DNA of 64,000 bases from Cryomorphaceae bacterium BACL11 MAG-121001-bin54 (GTDB lineage Bacteria > Bacteroidota > Bacteroidia > Flavobacteriales > BACL11): contig CAJJAH010000002.1 of NCBI GenBank assembly GCA_905182255.1, forward strand, positions 1-64,000, read 5' to 3'. Under the pieces are notes generated by a model that saw nothing but the letters and a program-made list of their open reading frames with translations, made no database searches and had not been told where the DNA came from. Of this stretch, positions 41 through 11,307 are shown piece after piece. Each line of letters starts with the position of its first letter. Positions within the stretch are counted from its first letter, which is position 1. A program made the position numbers and the translations under genes.

Positions 41-105
41 AAAACCCACTCAAATGAGTGGGTTTCTTTTTGGTGGGCCTTACGGTCCTAAGTTCGAACT
101 TTTTT
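41..105 (+). repeat. Dispersed structured repeat, copy R1
   Basis: aaaacccactcaaatgagtgggtttctttttggtgggccttacggtcctaagttcgaactttttt; two hairpins plus AGTTCGAACT palindrome and T-tract. Confidence 0.9.
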
Positions 106-889
106 ATTTCTTAGTAGCTTTTAGATTAAATACATAAGGAGTACTATTCTTTTCTCTTTTTTCTAAAACATATTTCCCTTTTTCCTTTTTAATCATTCCA
201 TCCAATAAGAATGGACTATAATCAAATTCTTCAAAATGTGTTAGTTTTAATCCGTTAGATTCTAATGCGGAAAATATATTTGTTAGTGAATGGTTCCACC
301 AACATGTTTTGGTTACTAATTCTGAACCACCATCAGTATAAGTACCGTTTTCAATTTCAATGTCAGGTTTAGGATCGTAGAAATAGTCGTATCCATTATC
401 TTTTATGAGATCTAAAAAAGGGTGAAATTCAGTTAATAGAAACAGTCCTCCTTTTTTTAGGTGAGTAGCAATGGTTGCAGCCCATTTATCTAAATCAGGA
501 AGCCATCCAATTACTCCATAAGAGCTAAAAATTATATCAAACTCTTTGTTAAGTTTTAAATCTAAAACATTGCTTTCTATAAAGTTAACATGCATATTCA
601 TTTCTGCTGCTATTCTTTTAGCTTCATTTATTGCTGCATCTGAAAAATCTACACCAGTTACTTTAGCTCCCATTCTGGCAAAAGAAATACTATCTTGACC
701 AAAGTGACATTGTAGATGAAGTAATGACTTTCCTTTTACATCTCCGATAGCATTAAGTTCAATAGGTTTTAATGAAGTCTTACCTTTCTTAAATTCTTCA
801 TTATTATAAAAGTTAGATTTTATATGAATAGGAGTTCTTTTATTCCAGGCTTTTTTATTGGTTTCTATATGTTTTTTAAATTCTGTCAT
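104..889 (-). CDS. Class I SAM-dependent methyltransferase
   Basis: ORF with SAM-binding motif I-like LLHLQCHFGQDSISFARMGAKVTGVDFS; stop codon abuts repeat R1. Confidence 0.85.
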   Translation of the reverse strand: MTEFKKHIETNKKAWNKRTPIHIKSNFYNNEEFKKGKTSLKPIELNAIGDVKGKSLLHLQCHFGQDSISFARMGAKVTGVDFSDAAINEAKRIAAEMNMHVNFIESNVLDLKLNKEFDIIFSSYGVIGWLPDLDKWAATIATHLKKGGLFLLTEFHPFLDLIKDNGYDYFYDPKPDIEIENGTYTDGGSELVTKTCWWNHSLTNIFSALESNGLKLTHFEEFDYSPFLLDGMIKKEKGKYVLEKREKNSTPYVFNLKATKK

Positions 890-926
890 ATTTAAATGTT
901 CTTGGCTTTAAATTATGCTAAAATAA

Positions 927-988
927 TAAAACCCACTCAATTGAGTGGGTTTCTTTTTGGTGGGCCTCTCGGTCCTAAGTTCGAACTA
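927..988 (+). repeat. Dispersed structured repeat, copy R2
   Basis: aaaacccactcaattgagtgggtttctttttggtgggcctctcggtcctaagttcgaac. Confidence 0.9.
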
Positions 989-991
989 TTT

Positions 992-1020
992 TAAAGTATT
1001 ATGCTTAGCATAATACTTTA
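992..1020. promoter_or_regulatory. Perfect 13-bp dyad TAAAGTATTATGC-TTA-GCATAATACTTTA upstream of a TAnnTTTG promoter motif (TATTTTTG, 1033-1040)
   Basis: Inverted repeat read directly; Bacteroidetes -7 consensus TAnnTTTG follows at 1033. Confidence 0.6.
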
Positions 1021-1067
1021 TTTAAAATCCTTTATTTTTGTGAAATATTAACTAAATAAAAAGAAAA

Positions 1068-1721
1068 ATGAAAAAATTACTTTACACATTATTAGCAGTA
1101 TCCATAATATTTTCTGCTTGCAAGAAAGAAGATGAAGAAACTAATTCAAGCAACAACAACAATAATAATAACTCTACCTCAATTGTAGGTGTGTGGACAC
1201 CTACTTCTGTTACTATAGACACATCAATGACAACTATTATAGATGGAGAAACAGTAAATGATTTGGATGGTGAGATAATGACATACTCTGGAACTGAAAC
1301 AACGACGCCAGCAGAAGCTGGGATAGACGGAAATTTGGAGTTTACTGATAATGGACTAGCAATTTTTGATGCTGATGATGATACAAGTATATATTCCTAC
1401 TCAAATAATGTAGTGACAATAATAAATGACGATGGAGAATTAACTGAGTTTACCTGTACATTCACAGGGTCTGACATTCTTGCATTAACAATGTCATACG
1501 GTATGGATACATCTTACAATGAACCAATGTTAATATTTCTTGGTTACCCTGAAGGGAATATTTCTATATCTGCAAATCAATCATTGACAATAAATGCCTC
1601 AAGAAGTACAGTTATAAACACTAATGTAAATCAAAGAATTGGAAATACAAATCATAATTGGTTTGTAAAACCGAGATTTGATAATATTTTGAAAAGAGTA
1701 TTAAATAAACTAAAAAAATAA
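1068..1721 (+). CDS. Lipoprotein (lipobox FSAC)
   Basis: MKKLLYTLLAVSIIFSACKKEDEE signal peptide/lipobox. Confidence 0.75.
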   Translation: MKKLLYTLLAVSIIFSACKKEDEETNSSNNNNNNNSTSIVGVWTPTSVTIDTSMTTIIDGETVNDLDGEIMTYSGTETTTPAEAGIDGNLEFTDNGLAIFDADDDTSIYSYSNNVVTIINDDGELTEFTCTFTGSDILALTMSYGMDTSYNEPMLIFLGYPEGNISISANQSLTINASRSTVINTNVNQRIGNTNHNWFVKPRFDNILKRVLNKLKK

Positions 1722-1754
1722 AAATAAATTATTTTTCATAAATTCTAAAATAAT

Positions 1755-1819
1755 TAAACCCACTCATTTGAGTGGGTTTTATTTTTTGTGGGCCTTACGG
1801 TCCTAAGTTCGAATTTTTT
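1755..1819 (+). repeat. Dispersed structured repeat, copy R3
   Basis: ttaaacccactcatttgagtgggttttattttttgtgggccttacggtcctaagttcgaatttttt. Confidence 0.9.
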
Positions 1820-1999
1820 CCATAGATATATTAATCTGAATATGTAAGGCTATTACTAGATATGAAAATTGTTATAAGTTTTTTGAATTCGTAAGATGTT
1901 ATTTAAAAAGATATTGTAAGTTGCAAGAAACTACATAATTTTGCATTGTTAAAATCGATTTAAGCATCTAAAATAAATTATTAAATTTAAAACAAAATT

Positions 2000-3157
2000 A
2001 TGAAAAAATTATTATTAACAACAATGGCAGCTTTGACAATCTTATTTGCTCAAGCACAAACCTTATGTGATCCAAACATGACTTACACAACAGGTTCACA
2101 ATATCAATTAGAAATAGCAATACCAGTAACTGGAAATAGTTTACCTACTATGGCACCTTTGTATGCTGTAACTTATGGTGATGGAAATATGTTAGCTGAA
2201 GATAGCTGTTTTAGTGGTCCTTGTACACATATGGTATACAACTATAACCCAAATGGAACGTATTATGATACACTTACAACTTGTATATCCTACACACTTA
2301 CCGATACAGTAGGTTATGTTGACACTTTAATGTGTTGTTTTTTTCAATATTGGGATGGAAGTGTTTGGTCAGTTCCAGGAGGAACTCCTACACCTTCTTG
2401 GGATTGTGCGCCAAATACAATATTAGGCTGTGTTGACTCAGGAACTGGATTAGGACAATATACTTCATTGTTATCTTGTCAATTAGGATGTGGAGCGCCA
2501 TGTCCTGGTGTAGCTTCTATCGCTCAGAACACAAACATTTTTACTGCAAATATTACTGGAGGAATAGCGCCATATACTTATTTATGGAGTACTGGTGAAA
2601 CTACACAAGCTATTACTGTTTCATTAAGTATGTCAGGAAATTGTGATGTTACTGATGCTAATGGGTGTGTCTATTCTGCTAATTATTCTTATTCAGCAGG
2701 ACAATTTGTTGCTTGTGATTCCATGACTCTTTTTAGTACAGGTGGTTCACCACAAACAATTTTAATGGCGGAAGTACCGTTTAGCATCATGGATATTGCT
2801 TCTTGGATTACTACTGCTCCAGATGGAACAGTTTTAGGAGTAGATAGTATGTCTAATTCACATCAGATTTTTAATAATATGAATAATGGTCAGCCCTATG
2901 ACACTATTAATGTTTGTATTTCTTACTTTGATGTTAATGGTTATTTTACATGTTGTGTAACCTGGATATGGGATACAAATTCAGGCGTTTGGGCTAAGAT
3001 GGGTAGTGTTACTTCATTAGATGAAATGAACTTAGATACCAAGAAATTGATTAAAATAGTAGATGTTTTAGGAAGAGAAACATTTCCAAAAAATAAACAA
3101 ATCTTATTTTATATCTATGAGGATGGTACAATAGATAAGAAATATATAATAGAATAG
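2000..3157 (+). CDS. Secreted Cys-rich protein with two internal domain copies and short T9SS-type C-terminus
   Basis: Signal peptide MKKLLLTTMAALTILFAQAQ; C-terminus LIKIVDVLGRETFPKNKQILFYIYEDGTIDKKYIIE. Confidence 0.7.
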   Translation: MKKLLLTTMAALTILFAQAQTLCDPNMTYTTGSQYQLEIAIPVTGNSLPTMAPLYAVTYGDGNMLAEDSCFSGPCTHMVYNYNPNGTYYDTLTTCISYTLTDTVGYVDTLMCCFFQYWDGSVWSVPGGTPTPSWDCAPNTILGCVDSGTGLGQYTSLLSCQLGCGAPCPGVASIAQNTNIFTANITGGIAPYTYLWSTGETTQAITVSLSMSGNCDVTDANGCVYSANYSYSAGQFVACDSMTLFSTGGSPQTILMAEVPFSIMDIASWITTAPDGTVLGVDSMSNSHQIFNNMNNGQPYDTINVCISYFDVNGYFTCCVTWIWDTNSGVWAKMGSVTSLDEMNLDTKKLIKIVDVLGRETFPKNKQILFYIYEDGTIDKKYIIE

Positions 3158-3187
3158 TTTAAGTGGTTAATCTATAAGTAATAATAT

Positions 3188-3206
3188 TAGGGGCTTTAAG
3201 CCCCTA
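3188..3206. terminator. Hairpin TAGGGGC-TTTAA-GCCCCTA between cargo genes
   Basis: Perfect inverted repeat just downstream of stop at 3157. Confidence 0.5.
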
Positions 3207-3230
3207 CTTTATATAATAAAAATTAAAAAT

Positions 3231-4610
3231 ATGAAAAAAGGGCTACTATTATTACTTTGCTTACCAATGATTGGGTTTGGGCAAAATTGTCCTACTATAG
3301 GCTTTCCAAGTTACTATAATTGTTCTGATATTGCTCAATTTGTTGTTGATTATCCAAACTGCAATAACCTACCTAGTACACTCAGACTACCTTTTGATGG
3401 AGGAGATCTAACTAATTATCCTGGCTTAACTCAATTAGATTCTATAAGTGGTAGTGTAGTGTGTAATGAATGTGAGATCACTTCATTTGCTGGGCTTTCT
3501 GCTTTAAAATATGTTGGTGGAAATGTTTATATTGATGAGCCTCATGATATAATTACAGATTTATATGGTTTAACAAATTTGAGTCACATTGGAGGGAGTC
3601 TATCTTTATTGGAATGTGGAGATCTTATTTCTACAAATGGGATTGCAAATTTAAATAGTGTAAATGAAGTTAGAATTGTGGAATGTGATAATATTGTTAA
3701 TATTGTTGGCTTTGATGATATAGATTCTTTAATAGGGGGCTTATATATAGAAGAAACATCTTTGACAAACCTTAATGGATTTAACAATTTGAAATTTATT
3801 GGAAACCTAGAAATTTCTGAAAATCCTATGCTTAATAATCTTATTGGCTTATCATCTGTTTTAACAGTAGATGGTTATATAGAAATTGTTGAAAATATAT
3901 CATTACAAAGTTTATTTGGATTAGACAGTATTATTCCAAATCAAATATCTAATCTTATTTTAACAGACAATGATTCTTTAAGTTACTGTAATCTTGATAA
4001 TATTTGTGAATATATTGACCAGGGGTATGGGCCATCTACTATTTATGCTAACAAAACAAATTGTAATTCAATTTTAGATGTTCAGAATCAGTGCCTCTCT
4101 CTCCCTCAGTATATTAGTGTAAATGGAGTCTATCATGCTGATACAGTTCAGTATGCAACCCCTTTAGATTTAGACTTTTGGTTTGTAAATAATAGTATCA
4201 CAACATACTTCATTAGTTCTATTACTGCTAACATAGCGATTATTCCAGTGAACGCATCTATAATTAATCTACAACCATTTTCATTTACACAAACTATACC
4301 TCAAGCTGCTTTTTATCCAGGAGATAGTATTTATATTTCACCTCCTGTTGGGGTTCAATTATATCAACAAGCAGGAGATAATTTAGTTGTTATCTGGCCT
4401 TCTATGGCTGTCCCATTCATTTCAGATACCAGTGTTACTCCATTATATGTAATTCCACCTGTAACATCTGTTAATGAGATGATTTATCCTATTTATGAAG
4501 AATTTGATAATTCTTTATACGATTTGATGGGTAGAAGGTATGATAATATTATTGATATTCCTTCAGGGGTTATGTACATAAGAGATGGTAAGAAATACAT
4601 TAAAAAATAA
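3231..4610 (+). CDS. Secreted receptor L-domain/LRR-like protein with T9SS-type C-terminus
   Basis: MKKGLLLLLCLPMIGFGQ signal peptide; repeated LxxIGG/LNGFNNLKFIGNLEI motifs; C-term YDLMGRRYDNIIDIPSGVMYIRDGKKYIKK. Confidence 0.65.
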   Translation: MKKGLLLLLCLPMIGFGQNCPTIGFPSYYNCSDIAQFVVDYPNCNNLPSTLRLPFDGGDLTNYPGLTQLDSISGSVVCNECEITSFAGLSALKYVGGNVYIDEPHDIITDLYGLTNLSHIGGSLSLLECGDLISTNGIANLNSVNEVRIVECDNIVNIVGFDDIDSLIGGLYIEETSLTNLNGFNNLKFIGNLEISENPMLNNLIGLSSVLTVDGYIEIVENISLQSLFGLDSIIPNQISNLILTDNDSLSYCNLDNICEYIDQGYGPSTIYANKTNCNSILDVQNQCLSLPQYISVNGVYHADTVQYATPLDLDFWFVNNSITTYFISSITANIAIIPVNASIINLQPFSFTQTIPQAAFYPGDSIYISPPVGVQLYQQAGDNLVVIWPSMAVPFISDTSVTPLYVIPPVTSVNEMIYPIYEEFDNSLYDLMGRRYDNIIDIPSGVMYIRDGKKYIKK

Positions 4611-4618
4611 TCATTCTA

Positions 4619-5941
4619 ATGAATAATGCTTTAGACACTATAGTTGCAACACTTTCAAAGGAGGAGGTTAGATTCTTTAAATTATTTCTAAACAGAACAG
4701 ATAATAAGAATCGAAAAGATGTAGATCTTTTTGATTATATGAAGAAGAAAAAAGGTGATTTCACTACTAAAGATGTCTTAAAGAAACTAGAAACAAATCC
4801 AAATAATTATTATCAAATTAAAAACCGACTTTATCATGAATTGAATAATTCTATGGTATGGCAGCATATTTGGAAAGATAACCAATCTAAATCCTTTAGT
4901 TATATATTGCTTTCAAGAGTATATAAAAATAAAGGTGAATTAGAGCTAGCTTTTCATTACTTACAGCATGCTGAGAAGGAAGCAATAGATTCAGAATTAC
5001 ATGAGGTTTTGTCTATCATTTATTCAGAGATAATTAAGATTTCTCATGAAATACTTTCTATTGATGTAGATTATTATATTGAGCTAAAAATAAATAATAT
5101 TAAGATATTGTCTGAGATTGATGAGATGGATTTATTATTAGCTAAAATAATGTATGATATAAGAACAAAACAGAATTTTGGCAAATCAGATATTAGCTTA
5201 GTTCAACTGATTAAAACAAAATACGGAAAGATTTCAAAAGAAAAGAATTTAGTAAATAGTGCTAGATTTAGAATAAGATTATTTAAAATGTATAGTCGTT
5301 TATTGCTGCAGGAACGCGATTATCAATCATTAGAGAAGTTTCTAATTGAAAGTAATAATGAGTTTAAAAAGGATATGTTATTTGATAGGTCAAATCATAA
5401 TGAAAAGTTAACTCTATTAACTTATTTAACAAATTGTTTGTATAAAACTAAGAAGCATAAGGAATCATTAAAATATGCTGAACTATTACTAATTAGCATG
5501 AAAGAGTATGATTCTTTTTTGCATGATAAGTATCTGTTTTTCTATTATAATAGTTTGGTGTTAAATTATGCTAAGACTGATAAAGATAAAGCACTAGATT
5601 ATTTAAATAAAGCAAGTAAAAATGAAGTCATTAAAAAATTACCATCTTACACTAGTTTCATTTATTTAAATAAATCATTAATTTATTTTCATCAGGATAA
5701 TTTTATTGATGCTCAAAAGAATATGTCTAGATTAATTCTACAAGAAGATTTTCTTTTATTAGATAAAGCTTTTCAATTAAAGATTTTGATTGCTGATGTA
5801 ATAATTAGGTTTAAAAATGGACAACACGATATTGTACAGAAGATTGAAGATATTAGAAAAAACCATAAGCAATTATTATTGGATGAAGAGTGTGTTCGAG
5901 ATAGAGAAATGATAAATATAATATCTAAAGAAGATCTATGA
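4619..5941 (+). CDS. Conserved hypothetical protein, helical/TPR-like; probably frameshifted near its 3' end
   Basis: Long ORF; an alternative frame continues KIYDEDIADDKKRILSYMSDSDSDDLDIISYNLWLRNNL to about 6049. Confidence 0.55.
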   Translation: MNNALDTIVATLSKEEVRFFKLFLNRTDNKNRKDVDLFDYMKKKKGDFTTKDVLKKLETNPNNYYQIKNRLYHELNNSMVWQHIWKDNQSKSFSYILLSRVYKNKGELELAFHYLQHAEKEAIDSELHEVLSIIYSEIIKISHEILSIDVDYYIELKINNIKILSEIDEMDLLLAKIMYDIRTKQNFGKSDISLVQLIKTKYGKISKEKNLVNSARFRIRLFKMYSRLLLQERDYQSLEKFLIESNNEFKKDMLFDRSNHNEKLTLLTYLTNCLYKTKKHKESLKYAELLLISMKEYDSFLHDKYLFFYYNSLVLNYAKTDKDKALDYLNKASKNEVIKKLPSYTSFIYLNKSLIYFHQDNFIDAQKNMSRLILQEDFLLLDKAFQLKILIADVIIRFKNGQHDIVQKIEDIRKNHKQLLLDEECVRDREMINIISKEDL

Positions 5942-6066
5942 TGAGGATATCGCAGATGATAAAAAAAGAATATTGTCTTATATGTCAGATTCTGATTCAG
6001 ATGATTTAGATATTATTAGTTATAATCTTTGGTTAAGAAATAATCTATAAATACTAAAATATCATT

Positions 6067-6844
6067 TTGGAAGTATATAATGGCCCTCATTTAATCATAG
6101 AATATGAAAAAGAAAATTCAAGGCTAATTAATACTTGGAAATCTAACCCGCATAATGATGTGGTGTACAGAGAAGAGTTGATAGAATATCTAGACATATC
6201 TAAGAAAATTAAGCCTAGTCAAATGATTTGGATTCTAGATAAAAAAACTTTTAAACCAAATCTTGCTACAAAAAAATGGGTTGATGAAGTTATTTTAAAT
6301 CCAATATTTAAATCTGGATTTGTAAAGAGAAGGGCTGATGGTTATGATCAATTGGCATTTGTTTTTGGACAAGATGTTTCGGTTTTGATGCAAGGAGTAG
6401 AGAAGCCCATATACTGGATTTAACCCAAAGTATTTTACAAATGAAATAGAAGCTATTAATTGGTTAAGTAAAGAATCAAAAGCTATAGATTATAAGACTA
6501 TTAATCAGAATTTAGATATCACTTTTAAAGGAATAGATGATAATGAAAAAATAGTATTTGAGTTTAAAGAAGATGCATCAAAATTTGATGGTATTATCAA
6601 TTTATTTAAAACTATTATTGAACAACATCACTTCATGAAGAATAATACTGATAAATATTCTAGCTTAACTAAAAGAGAAAGGGAAACACTCAAATTCATC
6701 ATTAATGGATATGACAATAAACAGATAGCTGAAAAAATGCATATTTCTCCCAATACCATCCGAACTCATAGAAATAGAATTTGGCATAAACTTGAAATTA
6801 AGCATTTTAGTAATTGCTTGAAATATAAATGTTTTTTCAACTAA
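6067..6844 (+). pseudogene. LuxR-family HTH regulator split by a frameshift near 6418 (ORFs 6067-6423 and 6422-6844)
   Basis: Frame 2 is open from 6422 (NPKYFTNEIEAINWL...) into SSLTKRERETLKFIINGYDNKQIAEKMHISPNTIRTHRNRIWHKL, a LuxR HTH; frame 1 ends PIYWI*. Confidence 0.6.
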
Positions 6845-6854
6845 ACCGCTTGAC

Positions 6855-6884
6855 TTAAATTACGCTTTATAGCGTATTGTGGTA
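6855..6884 (+). repeat. 30-bp direct repeat copy A containing dyad TACGC-TTTATA-GCGTA
   Basis: ttaaattacgctttatagcgtattgtggta identical to 7105-7134; TAttTTTG at 6900-6907. Confidence 0.85.
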
Positions 6885-6959
6885 ACTAAAGATAAAATCT
6901 ATTTTTGTTTTGTAAAACTTATTATTAAATACAAATTAATTTTTCAATAGATTACTTAA

Positions 6960-7034
6960 ATACACCTAACTTTCTCTAAATAAACTTAGTTTTCATAATA
7001 CATGCTTTAATAGGTATAGAGAAGTTAGGTGTAT
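6960..7034. repeat. Inverted repeat, arms 6960-6978 and 7017-7034 (one bulge)
   Basis: ATACACCTAACTTTCTCTA / TAGAGAAGTTAGGTGTAT. Confidence 0.75.
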
Positions 7035-7104
7035 GGCGGTATAAATCCTCTCACTTTTAATAGAATGCTTAAAATATGCATGGTTTTTTAATTAAACTCC
7101 TTTA

Positions 7105-7134
7105 TTAAATTACGCTTTATAGCGTATTGTGGTA
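7105..7134 (+). repeat. 30-bp direct repeat copy B; TTG plus TAATTTTG (7151-7158) promoter-like motif downstream
   Basis: Identical to 6855-6884; -7-like TAnnTTTG at 7151. Confidence 0.8.
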
Positions 7135-7181
7135 CTCTAACTCTATTACCTAATTTTGTTGTCTAAATTAACAATACGATT

Positions 7182-7955
7182 ATGAAAAAAAACAAGATCT
7201 TATCACTCGCATTTTTACTCTTTTTACAGTTAATAGCTTCAGGGCAATCTATAACTCTCACTCTTGACAGTATTTCTTCAAACACGAATTGTAATGATAT
7301 TTGGACAGAACAAAATTTAGATCTTAGCTTTGTCATTGGAACTAGTGATGATTGTGGGGCAGGAGCTTGTTATTTTGATGTAGAGCCAACATATGTATGG
7401 CTTTACCCATCAAGACTATCTGTTGATTTATCAGGTTTACAAAACATCCAAAAAGTAGAGATTGACGTTATAAGTTATTGCAGTTATTTTAGTCCACAAT
7501 GTACCTTCTCTCATTTAATGGATAGTACTGGGATGATCATAAATACTGTGGGAAACACAATCAATAATCCAGGAAACTCTATTAATGGTACGCTTGAAAC
7601 CATAATAATTGAAAACCCTACTGAAGGCTTTTTAAGCGAACTAGCTATTAGTTCTTGTGAGGGCAACGTACATGAGATACGAATCTATCAAAACATATTG
7701 AGTACTAATCAAATAGAGTTAGATGATAGAGCATTCGCTATTTATCCAAATCCGGTAATAGATATGATCAATATTGATGTTTCGGGCAACCTAAAATATG
7801 AGGCAACTATTTATGATTTACAAGGAAGAATAATGATCAGTACAACAAACCAATCTACAATTGATATTCAAACCTTAACTCAAGGAACTTATTTAATTAA
7901 AATCACAGACTTAGACTCTGGTCAAAATGTAAGTGAAAAAATAATTATAGAATAA
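7182..7955 (+). CDS. T9SS type A sorting domain-containing secreted protein
   Basis: Signal peptide; C-terminus FAIYPNPVIDMINIDVSGNLKYEATIYDLQGRIM...GTYLIKITD. Confidence 0.85.
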   Translation: MKKNKILSLAFLLFLQLIASGQSITLTLDSISSNTNCNDIWTEQNLDLSFVIGTSDDCGAGACYFDVEPTYVWLYPSRLSVDLSGLQNIQKVEIDVISYCSYFSPQCTFSHLMDSTGMIINTVGNTINNPGNSINGTLETIIIENPTEGFLSELAISSCEGNVHEIRIYQNILSTNQIELDDRAFAIYPNPVIDMINIDVSGNLKYEATIYDLQGRIMISTTNQSTIDIQTLTQGTYLIKITDLDSGQNVSEKIIIE

Positions 7956-7978
7956 ACGCTTAACAAACAACTAAGATT

Positions 7979-9127
7979 ATGAAAAAATTACTACTAGTAT
8001 TAATTTGCTTACCCTCTATTGGGTTTGGGCAATGTGATAGACAACAAATAGTTGACAATTACAATAATATATATTTAGGCAGTGAGGTTTCAACACCTCA
8101 ATTAGGATGGACGGGAAATATAAACACTTGTGATCCCGGTACAATCTCAACTCTCTCAATAAACAATACACTAGATAGAATAAACTATTTTAGAGATTTA
8201 GTAGGATTGCCTTCAGACATTATCTTTGACCCAATTTTAAATCAAAAATGCCAAGAATCAGCATTAATGATGGAGGCAAATGGAACAGTAGATCATTACC
8301 CTCCAGCAAGTTGGAATTGTTATACCACAGATGGAGCATCTGCTGCTGCAAATTCCAATTTAGTTATTGGTAGACATTCCTCAGGAGCTATAACTGGAAT
8401 GATAGAGGATCCTGGAAGTCACAATTACTTTGTTGGACATAGAAGATGGCTCTTATACACAAGAGCAAATACTTTTGGAACAGGTTCTACTGATAATACA
8501 AATGTAACCTGGGTGGCGGATATCCCGAGTTTTAACGCGCCATTCTATGAATTTGTAGCTTATCCATCTGAAGGTTTTTTCCCTGCTCCCTTAGTATTTG
8601 AGAGATGGTCTTTGTCTATGCCAGATGCAGACTTTAGTAATACTACAATATCTATGACTGATGAGCAAGGAATAAATATTCCTCTAACAATTGAACCGGC
8701 GTATCCTGGAGGTGCAATAATAGGTGATAATACAATAGTTTGGGTGCCTGATCAGGCTTATTTAAACCTAAATAGCTCTGAGGATGAAAAATATACTATA
8801 AACATATCAAGTTTTTCTATAGTACTACCCATTGCAAACCAACCGCCCATTATTGTACCTCCTTACAGCTATGAAGTTATTATAATGACTAAAATGAATG
8901 GTTCTAATCTAGTTCACCCACCAAATTGCCCTAACTTGACTGTATGGGATGAAGACTCCTGCTCCTGTATCAATCAAAGTACTTCTACAATTGAACTTTA
9001 TCCAAACAAAAGAGAACTATTAAAAATTACAAACATATTTGGTCAATCAACAAATGAGAAAAAGAATACACCACTCTTTTACATCTATGATGATGGAACA
9101 GTTGAGAAAAAAATAATTCTTGAATAA
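7979..9127 (+). CDS. Secreted CAP (SCP/PR-1) domain protein with short T9SS-like C-terminus
   Basis: TLDRINYFRDLVGLPSDIIFDPILNQKCQESALMMEANGTVDHYPP...GHRRWLLYT; C-term LFYIYDDGTVEKKIILE. Confidence 0.8.
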   Translation: MKKLLLVLICLPSIGFGQCDRQQIVDNYNNIYLGSEVSTPQLGWTGNINTCDPGTISTLSINNTLDRINYFRDLVGLPSDIIFDPILNQKCQESALMMEANGTVDHYPPASWNCYTTDGASAAANSNLVIGRHSSGAITGMIEDPGSHNYFVGHRRWLLYTRANTFGTGSTDNTNVTWVADIPSFNAPFYEFVAYPSEGFFPAPLVFERWSLSMPDADFSNTTISMTDEQGINIPLTIEPAYPGGAIIGDNTIVWVPDQAYLNLNSSEDEKYTINISSFSIVLPIANQPPIIVPPYSYEVIIMTKMNGSNLVHPPNCPNLTVWDEDSCSCINQSTSTIELYPNKRELLKITNIFGQSTNEKKNTPLFYIYDDGTVEKKIILE

Positions 9128-9150
9128 AAGATTAACAAACAACTAAGATC

Positions 9151-9256
9151 ATGAAAAAATTACTACTAATATTAATTTGCTTACTTTTATTGGTTTTGGG
9201 CAGCCTTCTAATGTAAATATACCTGACGCTAACTTTAAGGATATTTAGTTGGGAAT
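9151..9256 (+). pseudogene. Truncated, frameshifted relic of the 12886-type LRR cargo gene
   Basis: atgaaaaaattactactaatattaatttgctta...aatgtaaatatacctgacgctaactttaag matches the 5' end of 12886-13650. Confidence 0.75.
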
Positions 9257-9306
9257 ACGGTGGGGCTTTTATTTAAAAGTATTTTTTTCATAATTAATTA
9301 TAAAAT

Positions 9307-9371
9307 AAAACCCACTCAAATGAGTGGGTTTATTTTTGGTGGGCCTCTCGGTCCTTATTTCGAACTTTTTT
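9307..9371 (+). repeat. Dispersed structured repeat, copy R4
   Basis: aaaacccactcaaatgagtgggtttatttttggtgggcctctcggtccttatttcgaac. Confidence 0.9.
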
Positions 9372-9403
9372 AAGAATAGTTAGAGTTAATTTACCATAAA
9401 AAG

Positions 9404-9434
9404 CTATGCACGCATAGTTTTTATATTATATTTG
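9404..9434 (+). promoter_or_regulatory. Dyad CTATGC-AC-GCATAG followed by TATATTTG (9427-9434) promoter-like motif
   Basis: Inverted repeat plus TAnnTTTG 17 bp upstream of the patatin start codon. Confidence 0.5.
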
Positions 9435-9450
9435 CTATAATAAAACAGAT

Positions 9451-10305
9451 ATGAAGAAAAAAGAAAAAATAGCATTAGTAATTGAAGGAGGGGGATTTAA
9501 ATCTGTTTTTTCAGCGGGGGTTTTAGATGCATTTTTAATGAATAAATTTAATCCTTTTGATATTTATATAGGTGTTTCAAGTGGGGCAATGTCTTTAACT
9601 TATTATATAACTGGTCAATACAAATCATATTTTTCGCTTTCAAAAGAAGTATCTGTTAATGAGGAATTCTTAAGCTATAAACATGCCTTTTCAGAACAAG
9701 GATATATGGATTTAAAGTTTTTAACAGAATATGCTAAAAAAAATAAACCGTTAGAATTACAAAATATTAAGGATTCTACTGAGAATAAACAATTTTATAT
9801 AGTAGGTACAAATTTAGATAATGGTGAAGCTGTTTATTTAGAGCCAAACAAAAAGACTATTTATAGATGTCTACGAGCAACTTCTTCATTGCCATTTTTT
9901 ACTAAAGGTAAATGTAAGGTTAATGGGGTAAATTTAATGGATGGAGCATGGTCTGATGCAATACCAGCAAAATCAGCATCTGATTTTGGTGCAAATAAAA
10001 TAATTGTTATTAGACCACACCCTTTAGGTTATAAATTAGATGGATTAAGTTATTTGTCCTTGCTTGCTGGATATTGGTGGAAGAGTAAGCCGCATGTAAG
10101 TGATAATTTCTTTAAAGAAAAGAATAATTATAATGAAGCTGTAGATTTTTTAACGAAAAAACATAAAAACATAAAGATTCTACAGATCTGTCCTGACAAT
10201 CTCTTAAAGTCAGGAGTAGTTGGAACTAGCAAAGAAGATTTAATACGAGATTATCATTGTGGTTTTAAAAAGGGTATAGATTTCCTTAATACTAACTTTC
10301 TATAA
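9451..10305 (+). CDS. Patatin-like phospholipase
   Basis: EGGGFKSVFSAGVLDAF oxyanion-hole motif, GVSSGA nucleophile elbow, DGAWSDAIP. Confidence 0.9.
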   Translation: MKKKEKIALVIEGGGFKSVFSAGVLDAFLMNKFNPFDIYIGVSSGAMSLTYYITGQYKSYFSLSKEVSVNEEFLSYKHAFSEQGYMDLKFLTEYAKKNKPLELQNIKDSTENKQFYIVGTNLDNGEAVYLEPNKKTIYRCLRATSSLPFFTKGKCKVNGVNLMDGAWSDAIPAKSASDFGANKIIVIRPHPLGYKLDGLSYLSLLAGYWWKSKPHVSDNFFKEKNNYNEAVDFLTKKHKNIKILQICPDNLLKSGVVGTSKEDLIRDYHCGFKKGIDFLNTNFL

Positions 10306-10364
10306 ACCCATAATGATCGGGTTTCTTTTTAGTGGGCCTCTCGGTCCTAAGTTCGAACTTTTTT
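10304..10364 (+). repeat. Dispersed structured repeat, copy R5 (degenerate first hairpin)
   Basis: aaacccataatgatcgggtttctttttagtgggcctctcggtcctaagttcgaactttttt; overlaps the patatin stop codon. Confidence 0.85.
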
Positions 10365-10368
10365 GATC

Positions 10369-10902
10369 CTAACTTAAAATTTTTGAATAAGTAAATTGTA
10401 CTAAACCGCTTTCAAACTCATCTGTTTTTTTTAGTTGGAAATTTTGTGGGACTATTCCTTTTTCAAACAATAATGTTCCTTTTTTTAATTCAACAGGAAC
10501 TACAGAAAGAATGATTTGATCAATTAGATTTTTACTAATTAAGTATTTTGCTAATTCTGCTCCTCCGTCACAATATATATTTTTTGTAGAAGATTTCTTT
10601 AACTGAGCAACTAGCTCTGAAATATCATTAGAAAAAAAGGTTAGTTTCTTTTTTCCTAATTTTTTTTTATCTCTTGATATAACATAGACATTTTTGTTTT
10701 CATGATAAGGGAAGCCCATGGAAATTACTTTATCATATGTTTTTCTTCCAACTAATATAGGTCCTACAGAATTTATAAATTTCAAATAACCATAATCTTC
10801 ACCTTCAATTTCTACTAATTTTAAGAAACTTAAGTCATCTGATTCACCTGAAATAAAACCATCTTGAGATGATGCTATATATAGAACTAAGTTATTATTC
10901 AT
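10369..10902 (-). CDS. RibD C-terminal/dihydrofolate reductase-like protein
   Basis: MNNNLVLYIASSQDGFISGESDDLSFL...GPILVGRKTYDKVISMG...IYCDGGAELAKYLI; the longer track ORF starts inside repeat R6. Confidence 0.85.
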   Translation of the reverse strand: MNNNLVLYIASSQDGFISGESDDLSFLKLVEIEGEDYGYLKFINSVGPILVGRKTYDKVISMGFPYHENKNVYVISRDKKKLGKKKLTFFSNDISELVAQLKKSSTKNIYCDGGAELAKYLISKNLIDQIILSVVPVELKKGTLLFEKGIVPQNFQLKKTDEFESGLVQFTYSKILS

Positions 10903-10916
10903 TTCGTAAAAATAAT

Positions 10917-10974
10917 AAAACCCACTCAATTGAGTGGGTTTCTTTTTGGTGGGCCTTTCGGATCTCGAATTCAA
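10917..10974 (+). repeat. Dispersed structured repeat, copy R6 (divergent 3' part)
   Basis: aaaacccactcaattgagtgggtttctttttggtgggcctttcggatctcgaattcaaattt. Confidence 0.85.
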
Positions 10975-11187
10975 ATTTAATATTTTATAAAATAAGAGAT
11001 TACTCAGATAATCGAATAAATTTATTAAATTTGATTTAGTAGATTGGTTAGCGGTGCAAAATGTGGTGCAAATTTTAGTTTTAAAGCTTACTGTAATCTA
11101 GTGAAAAGGGTAGAGGTTGTAATCCTGCTACCCCGAAATCAAAACAATAAAGTATCTTTTATATTATATACTAAAGAATATAATATG

Positions 11188-11307
11188 CCATTTAAGAAAG
11201 GAATAAGCGGAAACCCTGTAGATAGACCTAAAGGTTCTCTAAGCACTACTACTAAGAACATAAGAGAGCATATAAGCCAAGCTATTGACGGAAACAAGAT
11301 AATGTAG
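11188..11307 (+). pseudogene. Truncated DUF5681-like (mobile-element/phage-associated) N-terminus
   Basis: MPFKKGISGNPVDRPKGSLSTTTKNIREHISQAIDGN resembles FKKGQSGNPKGRPKGxxNKTT; stops after ~39 aa. Confidence 0.5.

Follow-up and report, generated by a model that had tools for sequence, protein, structure and literature searches.

Integrons, which use a tyrosine recombinase, have so far been the main known case of gene-cassette capture; the attC sites of integron cassettes end in RYYYAAC and GTTRRRY. By mechanism, the nearest known systems to the one described here are the ssrA islands of Dehalococcoides and SCC. The serine recombinases of the Dehalococcoides islands are DsiB and DsiA, and 15 of the 31 islands have no integration module of their own (PMC3146451). 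In the attachment sites of serine integrases, the motif for the zinc domain lies 5 bp nearer the centre in attB than in attP (Rutherford et al., PMC3783163). A comparable cassette arrangement with a serine recombinase seems to have arisen in marine Flavobacteriales with small genomes, in which it is a mark of regions that change rapidly.

We analysed a stretch of 64,000 nucleotides (the window) from the genome of Cryomorphaceae bacterium BACL11 MAG-121001-bin54. A preliminary description had counted six copies of a repeat, and these correspond to joints at positions 73, 960, 1788, 9339, 10332 and 10949 in the first 11 kb. It had read the minus strand of the repeat as a tRNA-tail-like sequence followed by CCA and a terminator, with 18 nt from TTCGAAC to CCA, and was correct in both the order and the count: positions 73-105 read GTGGGCCTTACGGTCCTAAGTTCGAACTTTTTT, and the reverse complement is GTTCGAAC...GGCCCACCA-AAAAGA-hairpin. 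We interpret the repeat as an attachment site that separates mobile units. With high confidence, although recombination data are lacking, we consider the repeats to be the recombination joints of an integron-like cassette system that is most likely run by a large serine recombinase (LSR). The features of the array are listed in Table 1.

Table 1 Half-sites, units and adjoining repeat of the array in the window
Feature	Position	Strand	Description
Left unit's end (P' half-site)	43..72		Hairpin terminator 43-65 and T-run; same block after tRNA-Val on contig C1 of the same genome
P-type half-site	73..105		Crossover within GTGG (4 bp); TCGA at offset 21
Unit 1	73..959		Single gene 104-889 (minus), SAM methyltransferase
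Unit 2	960..1787		P half 960-992; lipoprotein-like gene 1068-1721 (+); terminator 1757-1779
Unit 3	1788..9338		P half 1788-1820; several genes; terminator 9309-9331
Unit 4	9339..10331		P half 9339-9371; patatin-like phospholipase gene 9451-10305 (+); variant terminator
Unit 5	10332..10948		P half 10332-10364; RibD_C/DHFR-like gene (minus); terminator 10919-10941
B-type (target-type) half-site without tRNA gene	10949..10974		GTGGGCCTTTCGGATCTCGAATTC; TCGA at offset 16
Second repeat family, ~155 nt	10975..11140	+	Degenerate tRNA-Pro(UGG)-like tail GGTTGTAATCCTGCTACCCCGA at end

A column profile of the site, built from 176 copies, gave the order hairpin terminator, T-run, G^GTGG[GA]CCT(CT/TA)CGGTCC (the caret marks the joint here and below), four variable bases, TTCGAAC and TTTTTT. 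The P half, consisting of GTGG, GGRCC-TNNC-GGTCC, a 4-nt spacer, TTCGAAC and TTTTTT, is not replaceable, whereas the terminator can be exchanged: frequently it is AAACCCACTC..GAGTGGGTTT, and in some units an unrelated hairpin takes its place. On the minus strand, the P' end that heads Table 1 reads CAAAAAG-AAACCCACTC... and gives the tRNA its CA and a terminator when the unit is first in an array. The sixth copy differs in its right half (GTGGGCCTTTCGGATCTCGAATTC), where TCGA lies 5 bp nearer the joint. This half-site is, as we read it, a decoy attB that anchors the right end of the window array, and it is fused to a member of a second repeat family, whose tail resembles tRNA-Pro. The second family has up to 21 copies per genome, is often interleaved with the first repeat and is linked to tyrosine integrases of ~400 aa, for example one adjoining tRNA-Pro at G013 C2:706137. 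It is a separate, parallel tail-mimic system that is associated with tyrosine integrases. Next to tRNA-Val and the second repeat, many genomes also encode a small protein, MPFKKGTSGNPIGRPKGSVSTT... (L302:11001-11279, L338:8565-8807 and window 11044-11307).

The extent of the units could be deduced from pairs of copies with one flank in common (52 pairs with the left flank only and 58 with the right flank only). Since the inspected pairs switch at GTGG, a unit extends from GTGG as far as the terminator at the following joint. The median length of the units was 1,172 bp (n = 109), and 71 of the 109 contained one ORF of at least 80 aa. TAnnTTTG, a Bacteroidetes-type promoter motif, was present after 62 of 168 joints, compared with 7 in the control stretch, which suggests that many units carry a promoter, a gene and a terminator. 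Unit 3, whose genes include secreted proteins with a common C-terminal tail as well as others, is unusually long and may represent several units with decayed joints. The methyltransferase unit was also found in a second array of the window's genome (C1:258192-259155) with other neighbours, and both ends of a unit with a SnoaL-like gene are unchanged in five contexts, one of them the tRNA-Val of a Crocinitomicaceae contig. The window's contig (C2) and the overlapping contig C3 share 99.8% identity across 10,364 bp but diverge at the joint at 10332, past which C3 carries other units.

Several cargo features were observed in addition. A near-identical tail, PLFYIYDDGTVEKKIILE, which resembles a secretion-signal C-terminus, is present in 26 of 133 unit-encoded proteins (L009, L041-L049, L046), and unrelated genes have in common the DNA that leads from this tail into the terminator, as though gene 3' ends had been swapped along with the joint. 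Homologues of homoserine kinase and threonine synthase are encoded in one unit (L011:6368-8812, L013:1782-4226), that is, core amino-acid genes move as a cassette. At L121 (3137-3769), the end of the SnoaL-like unit abuts GTGGTCC inside an apparent ruvX coding sequence, which looks like a secondary non-tDNA target or a rearranged end.

The tRNA-Val(UAC) gene of the window's genome (C1:252573-252650) ends in GCCCACCAAAAATAAACCCACTCATTTGAGTGGG and is directly followed at its 3' side by CAAAAATAAACCCACTC... and then by an array, with the junction CCCAC^CAAAAA-terminator. The check proposed in the preliminary description, whether any tRNA gene of the genome shares the tail of the repeat, is passed with this gene, where the array starts and which has the CCCACCA plus AACCCACTC tail in common with the repeat. 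At another locus (L180), a unit end meets the tail of tRNA-Val(UAC) in GTTCGAATCCAGTATTCCCCAC^CAAAAAG, and tRNA-Val(GAC), tRNA-Met, tmRNA and decoys are further anchors of the same units. Empty tRNA-Val sites in four genomes (G002, G003, G006 and G029) read GCCCAC^AACCATTAAG. The attL was found in C1 itself, in G013 and in others, and the attR in G007, where the native flank ...TTAATGGTT lies directly against a P half and is followed by the neighbour gene that also follows the empty sites in G002 and G006. Together with many unit-unit joints, all the expected integration products could be identified by sequence comparison, and they point to one crossover inside CCAC, the position of which is resolved to 4 bp only. 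A P site was located within 3 kb on the left of 21 of 26 B-type sites and on the right of only 1 of 28, showing that B-type sites close the arrays on one side only. The decoys recur: 15 B-type halves start with GTGGRCC, one of them (L178) at a real tRNA-Met. One criterion for SCC and for ssrA islands, tandem elements of a serine recombinase located at a single conserved gene's 3' end, is fulfilled.

The two types of half-site differ in the position of the TTCGAA motif. In GTGG joints preceded by a terminator, the TCGA offset is 21 for unit ends, as against 16 for tDNAs and decoys, and 164 of 171 joints have one of these two values. The loci were gathered by searching for these sites and for tDNAs, and the counts are not a random sample. 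The tDNA spacing to CCA is found in B-type halves and is absent from the P-type halves of the unit ends. As the spacing in tDNAs is set by tRNA structure, it is the unit ends, with the motif 5 bp further out, that are informative: the far end of a unit is a tRNA-tail mimic with attP spacing. This shift explains why there are 18 rather than 13 nt between TTCGAAC and CCA, and a motif shift between attP-type and attB-type half-sites is what is expected of an LSR system. TTCGAA is inferred to be the motif that the recombinase recognises. The preliminary description had offered att sites or tRNA-tail copies as the origin of the repeats. The att site can be retained, but a literal tRNA copy cannot, since no tDNA target has TTCGAA as far from the crossover as the unit ends, the difference being 5 bp. 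The enzyme found at the crossover is an LSR and not a tyrosine integrase.

This LSR, a protein of 536 aa, is located at the same crossover in tRNA-Val of G001 and of G044, which belongs to another family, and in tmRNA of G022 and G002, and a truncated remnant is present at tRNA-Val of G013. In the four genomes with the LSR gene, it is thus next to the integration site in attL, as expected of an LSR system. The protein (P0001) has the domains PF00239 Resolvase (E = 9e-26) and PF07508 Recombinase (E = 1e-10), S33 in YTRVS is invariant across eight homologues, and TP901-1 integrase is among its solved relatives. Its zinc-domain region has one Cys instead of the usual four and P0001 has no zinc-ribbon Pfam match, so that the enzyme is called an LSR by the two other domains, and its zinc domain is regarded as degenerate. 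The last codons of the LSR gene run into the target gene (...ALVGNEGLEPPTSSV in tRNA-Val and ...ALVELVGFEPTSKQGIK in tmRNA). All LSR contigs stop before the far end of the element, and its own P half is thus outside our data. No paired second recombinase was seen beside the LSR in G001, where two adjoining genes had no Pfam domain and the contig does not reach the remainder of the element. The LSR and the units have in common the junction, both targets (tRNA-Val and tmRNA) and, in some units, the terminator half, with 14 P-type joints carrying the LSR-type terminator half. The resemblance between the P' half of the units (CAAAAAGAAACCCACTCAATTGAG) and that of the LSR (CAAAGCGGAATCCATCTCATTNTGAG) is only partial, and the P' and P halves are only weakly similar. 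That this enzyme serves the unit system is an inference. Since most array-bearing genomes, including the incomplete genome of the window, lack the LSR, its action in trans is probable. A third family has relatives with 42-46% identity, of which at least three end in tRNA-Arg; here too the joint has a terminator, and no repeated half-site was seen near these relatives. Plasmid and phage records contained only distant LSRs (<60% identity, and ~26% or less among the best matches listed).

A different assignment would be that a tyrosine integrase targeting tRNA tails made the repeats and that the LSR is an unrelated visitor at the site. Tyrosine integrases of ~400 aa are indeed found beside tRNA-Val in G008 and G004, and they are linked to the second, tRNA-Pro-like repeat; several tyrosine-integrase islands in the group also use tRNA-Val. 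However, the junction of the two islands that were checked, those in G008 and G004, is a different one, CCCAC^AGATATTC, and comes with a direct repeat of the real tRNA tail, whereas the unit ends carry the 5-bp-shifted motif typical of serine integrases and are not tRNA copies. As the junction, both targets and the terminator half of some units are also common to the LSR and the units, we regard this explanation as improbable, albeit the strongest of the alternatives to our own. The islands in G008 and G004 (L299:4745, L300:11728) have a displaced tRNA-tail copy with its own AACCCACTC terminator at their end, and their presence at tRNA-Val means that two recombinase classes compete for one tDNA. 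Even less support remains for a dispersed terminator repeat whose units are shuffled by homologous recombination between copies. The hairpin is common and a plausible bidirectional terminator, but it is the P half that is fixed and the terminator that is replaceable, the switch points are confined to 4 bp, and units with the same ends have entered the tDNA of other families. An insertion like that of group-IIC introns behind terminators, considered because the units sit behind hairpins, was dropped, as the targets are tRNA ends and decoys.

One-gene units, the polarity of the array, array clusters free of recombinase genes and a small inverted repeat in the site would also fit a classical integron with attC sites and cassettes that had lost IntI. 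This is very hard to reconcile with the complete absence of integron integrases above the curated cut-off (0 of 38 genomes), with a 176-copy profile that contains no RYYYAAC/GTTRRRY ends and with tRNA and tmRNA genes as the anchors of the arrays. IntI-like tyrosine genes in G013, G019, G022 and G005 are distant from the first-repeat arrays. The tyrosine recombinase genes or remnants that partly resemble integron integrases (G013 C1:322273, G019 C6:73131 and G022 C28:27357; L334, L336 and L337) are flanked by uvrC-like and lysS-like genes in both G013 and G019; the one in G022 adjoins the uvrC-like gene at a contig end. We consider equally implausible a regulatory tRNA-like RNA on the minus strand, a T-arm mimic with CCA, to which the order of TTCGAAC, CCA and terminator had pointed. 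Of the five positions of the putative T-stem, only two pair in most copies (one of them mainly as G-U), and the other three pair in less than 10%. In the GGRCC/GGTCC hairpin, only one side changes, and half of the copies have an A-C mismatch on the minus strand. An Rfam scan of the window gave no match, and an ARAGORN scan detected no tRNA. The suspicion of a mere tRNA mimic, voiced in the preliminary description, was thus justified, but since the T-stem is unpaired, what is mimicked is a DNA binding site, and the repeat is neither an RNA nor a tRNA remnant.

We therefore return to recombination by an LSR, for which we propose the following scheme. A unit would consist of a P half-site, a gene, often with its own promoter, and a terminator with the P' half-site. 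As a circle in which P is joined to P', it would recombine with an attB formed by the 3' terminus of a tRNA or tmRNA gene, and the crossover is inferred to be in CCAC. As the sequences show, the tRNA then reads CCCAC^CA followed by the unit's terminator, so that CCA and a terminator are restored. Repeated insertion would lead to arrays with P joined to P' at the inner joints, B to P' at the anchor and P to B' at the far end. The LSR would be supplied in trans by rarer units or passing elements, most units having no recombinase. The circular intermediates and the recombination activity itself are, like the trans action, inferred. LSRs normally pair attP with attB only and, to our knowledge, canonical LSRs do not join attP to attP or to attL, so that the growth of such arrays requires either relaxed pairing, which has been described for Ccr enzymes, or a different route. 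The attP-like inner joints thus pose a testable question of array growth.

BLASTN matched the repeat in 39 of the 60 genomes compared: 33 of the 37 genomes of the window's GTDB family carry it, with up to 25 copies per genome, as do 6 of the 23 genomes outside the family, with one or two weak matches apiece. The window's genome has ~25 copies, far above chance. A pattern search of named genomes yielded 94 stretches, nearly all from uncultured marine Flavobacteriales and a few from Crocinitomicaceae, Cyclobacteriaceae and others. A viral origin was rejected, as neither the site pattern nor the LSR was present in the viral contigs searched. The joints provide a handle for finding accessory genes (secreted proteins, lipoproteins and enzymes) and a large natural collection of half-sites of the attP and attB types, in which the 5-bp rule can be seen in operation.

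The Dehalococcoides ssrA islands are similar in having tandem elements behind tmRNA, a serine recombinase beside the target and a tail repeat at each boundary; however, islands such as vcr are ~12 kb long, have a 20-bp direct ssrA repeat at the boundary and are cut in the T-loop (PMC3146451). Here, most units contain a single gene and are bounded by an attP-spaced mimic instead of a tRNA copy, cutting takes place at the CCA end, several tDNAs as well as decoys are used, and no second small serine recombinase adjoins, in contrast to DsiA/DsiB. The staphylococcal and enterococcal cassette chromosomes, SCC and ECC (CcrAB), are likewise driven by LSRs and located where a conserved gene ends (3' end), with composite arrays and variable cargo, but they have two recombinases, rlmH as the target, a size of 21-78 kb (ECC) and no single-gene units (PMC6222049). 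Phage serine integrases (LI/A118, Bxb1, phiC31) share the Resolvase and Recombinase domains and the 5-bp shift between attB and attP (PMC3783163), but have one attP per element, whereas here the same half-site type ends many recombinase-free units. Islander-type tyrosine islands at tRNA tails also restore their target and have a displaced or mimicked tail at the far end (PMC4383910), but differ in recombinase class, the shifted motif and unit size. We found no description of single-gene cassette arrays of a serine recombinase in the open-licence literature. Integrons, finally, have the same polar array of mobile one-gene cassettes with the recombination site at the end distal to the anchor, but the system described here has no IntI and no attC ends, and it has a tDNA anchor, its own terminators and often its own promoters; integrons work alike but are unrelated. 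On balance, we lean towards regarding this system as a serine-recombinase counterpart of the integron, in which an LSR with relaxed pairing rules acts in trans to mobilise a lineage-wide stock of self-contained, one-gene cassettes that are stacked at tRNA and tmRNA genes and decoy attB platforms and exchanged between families.
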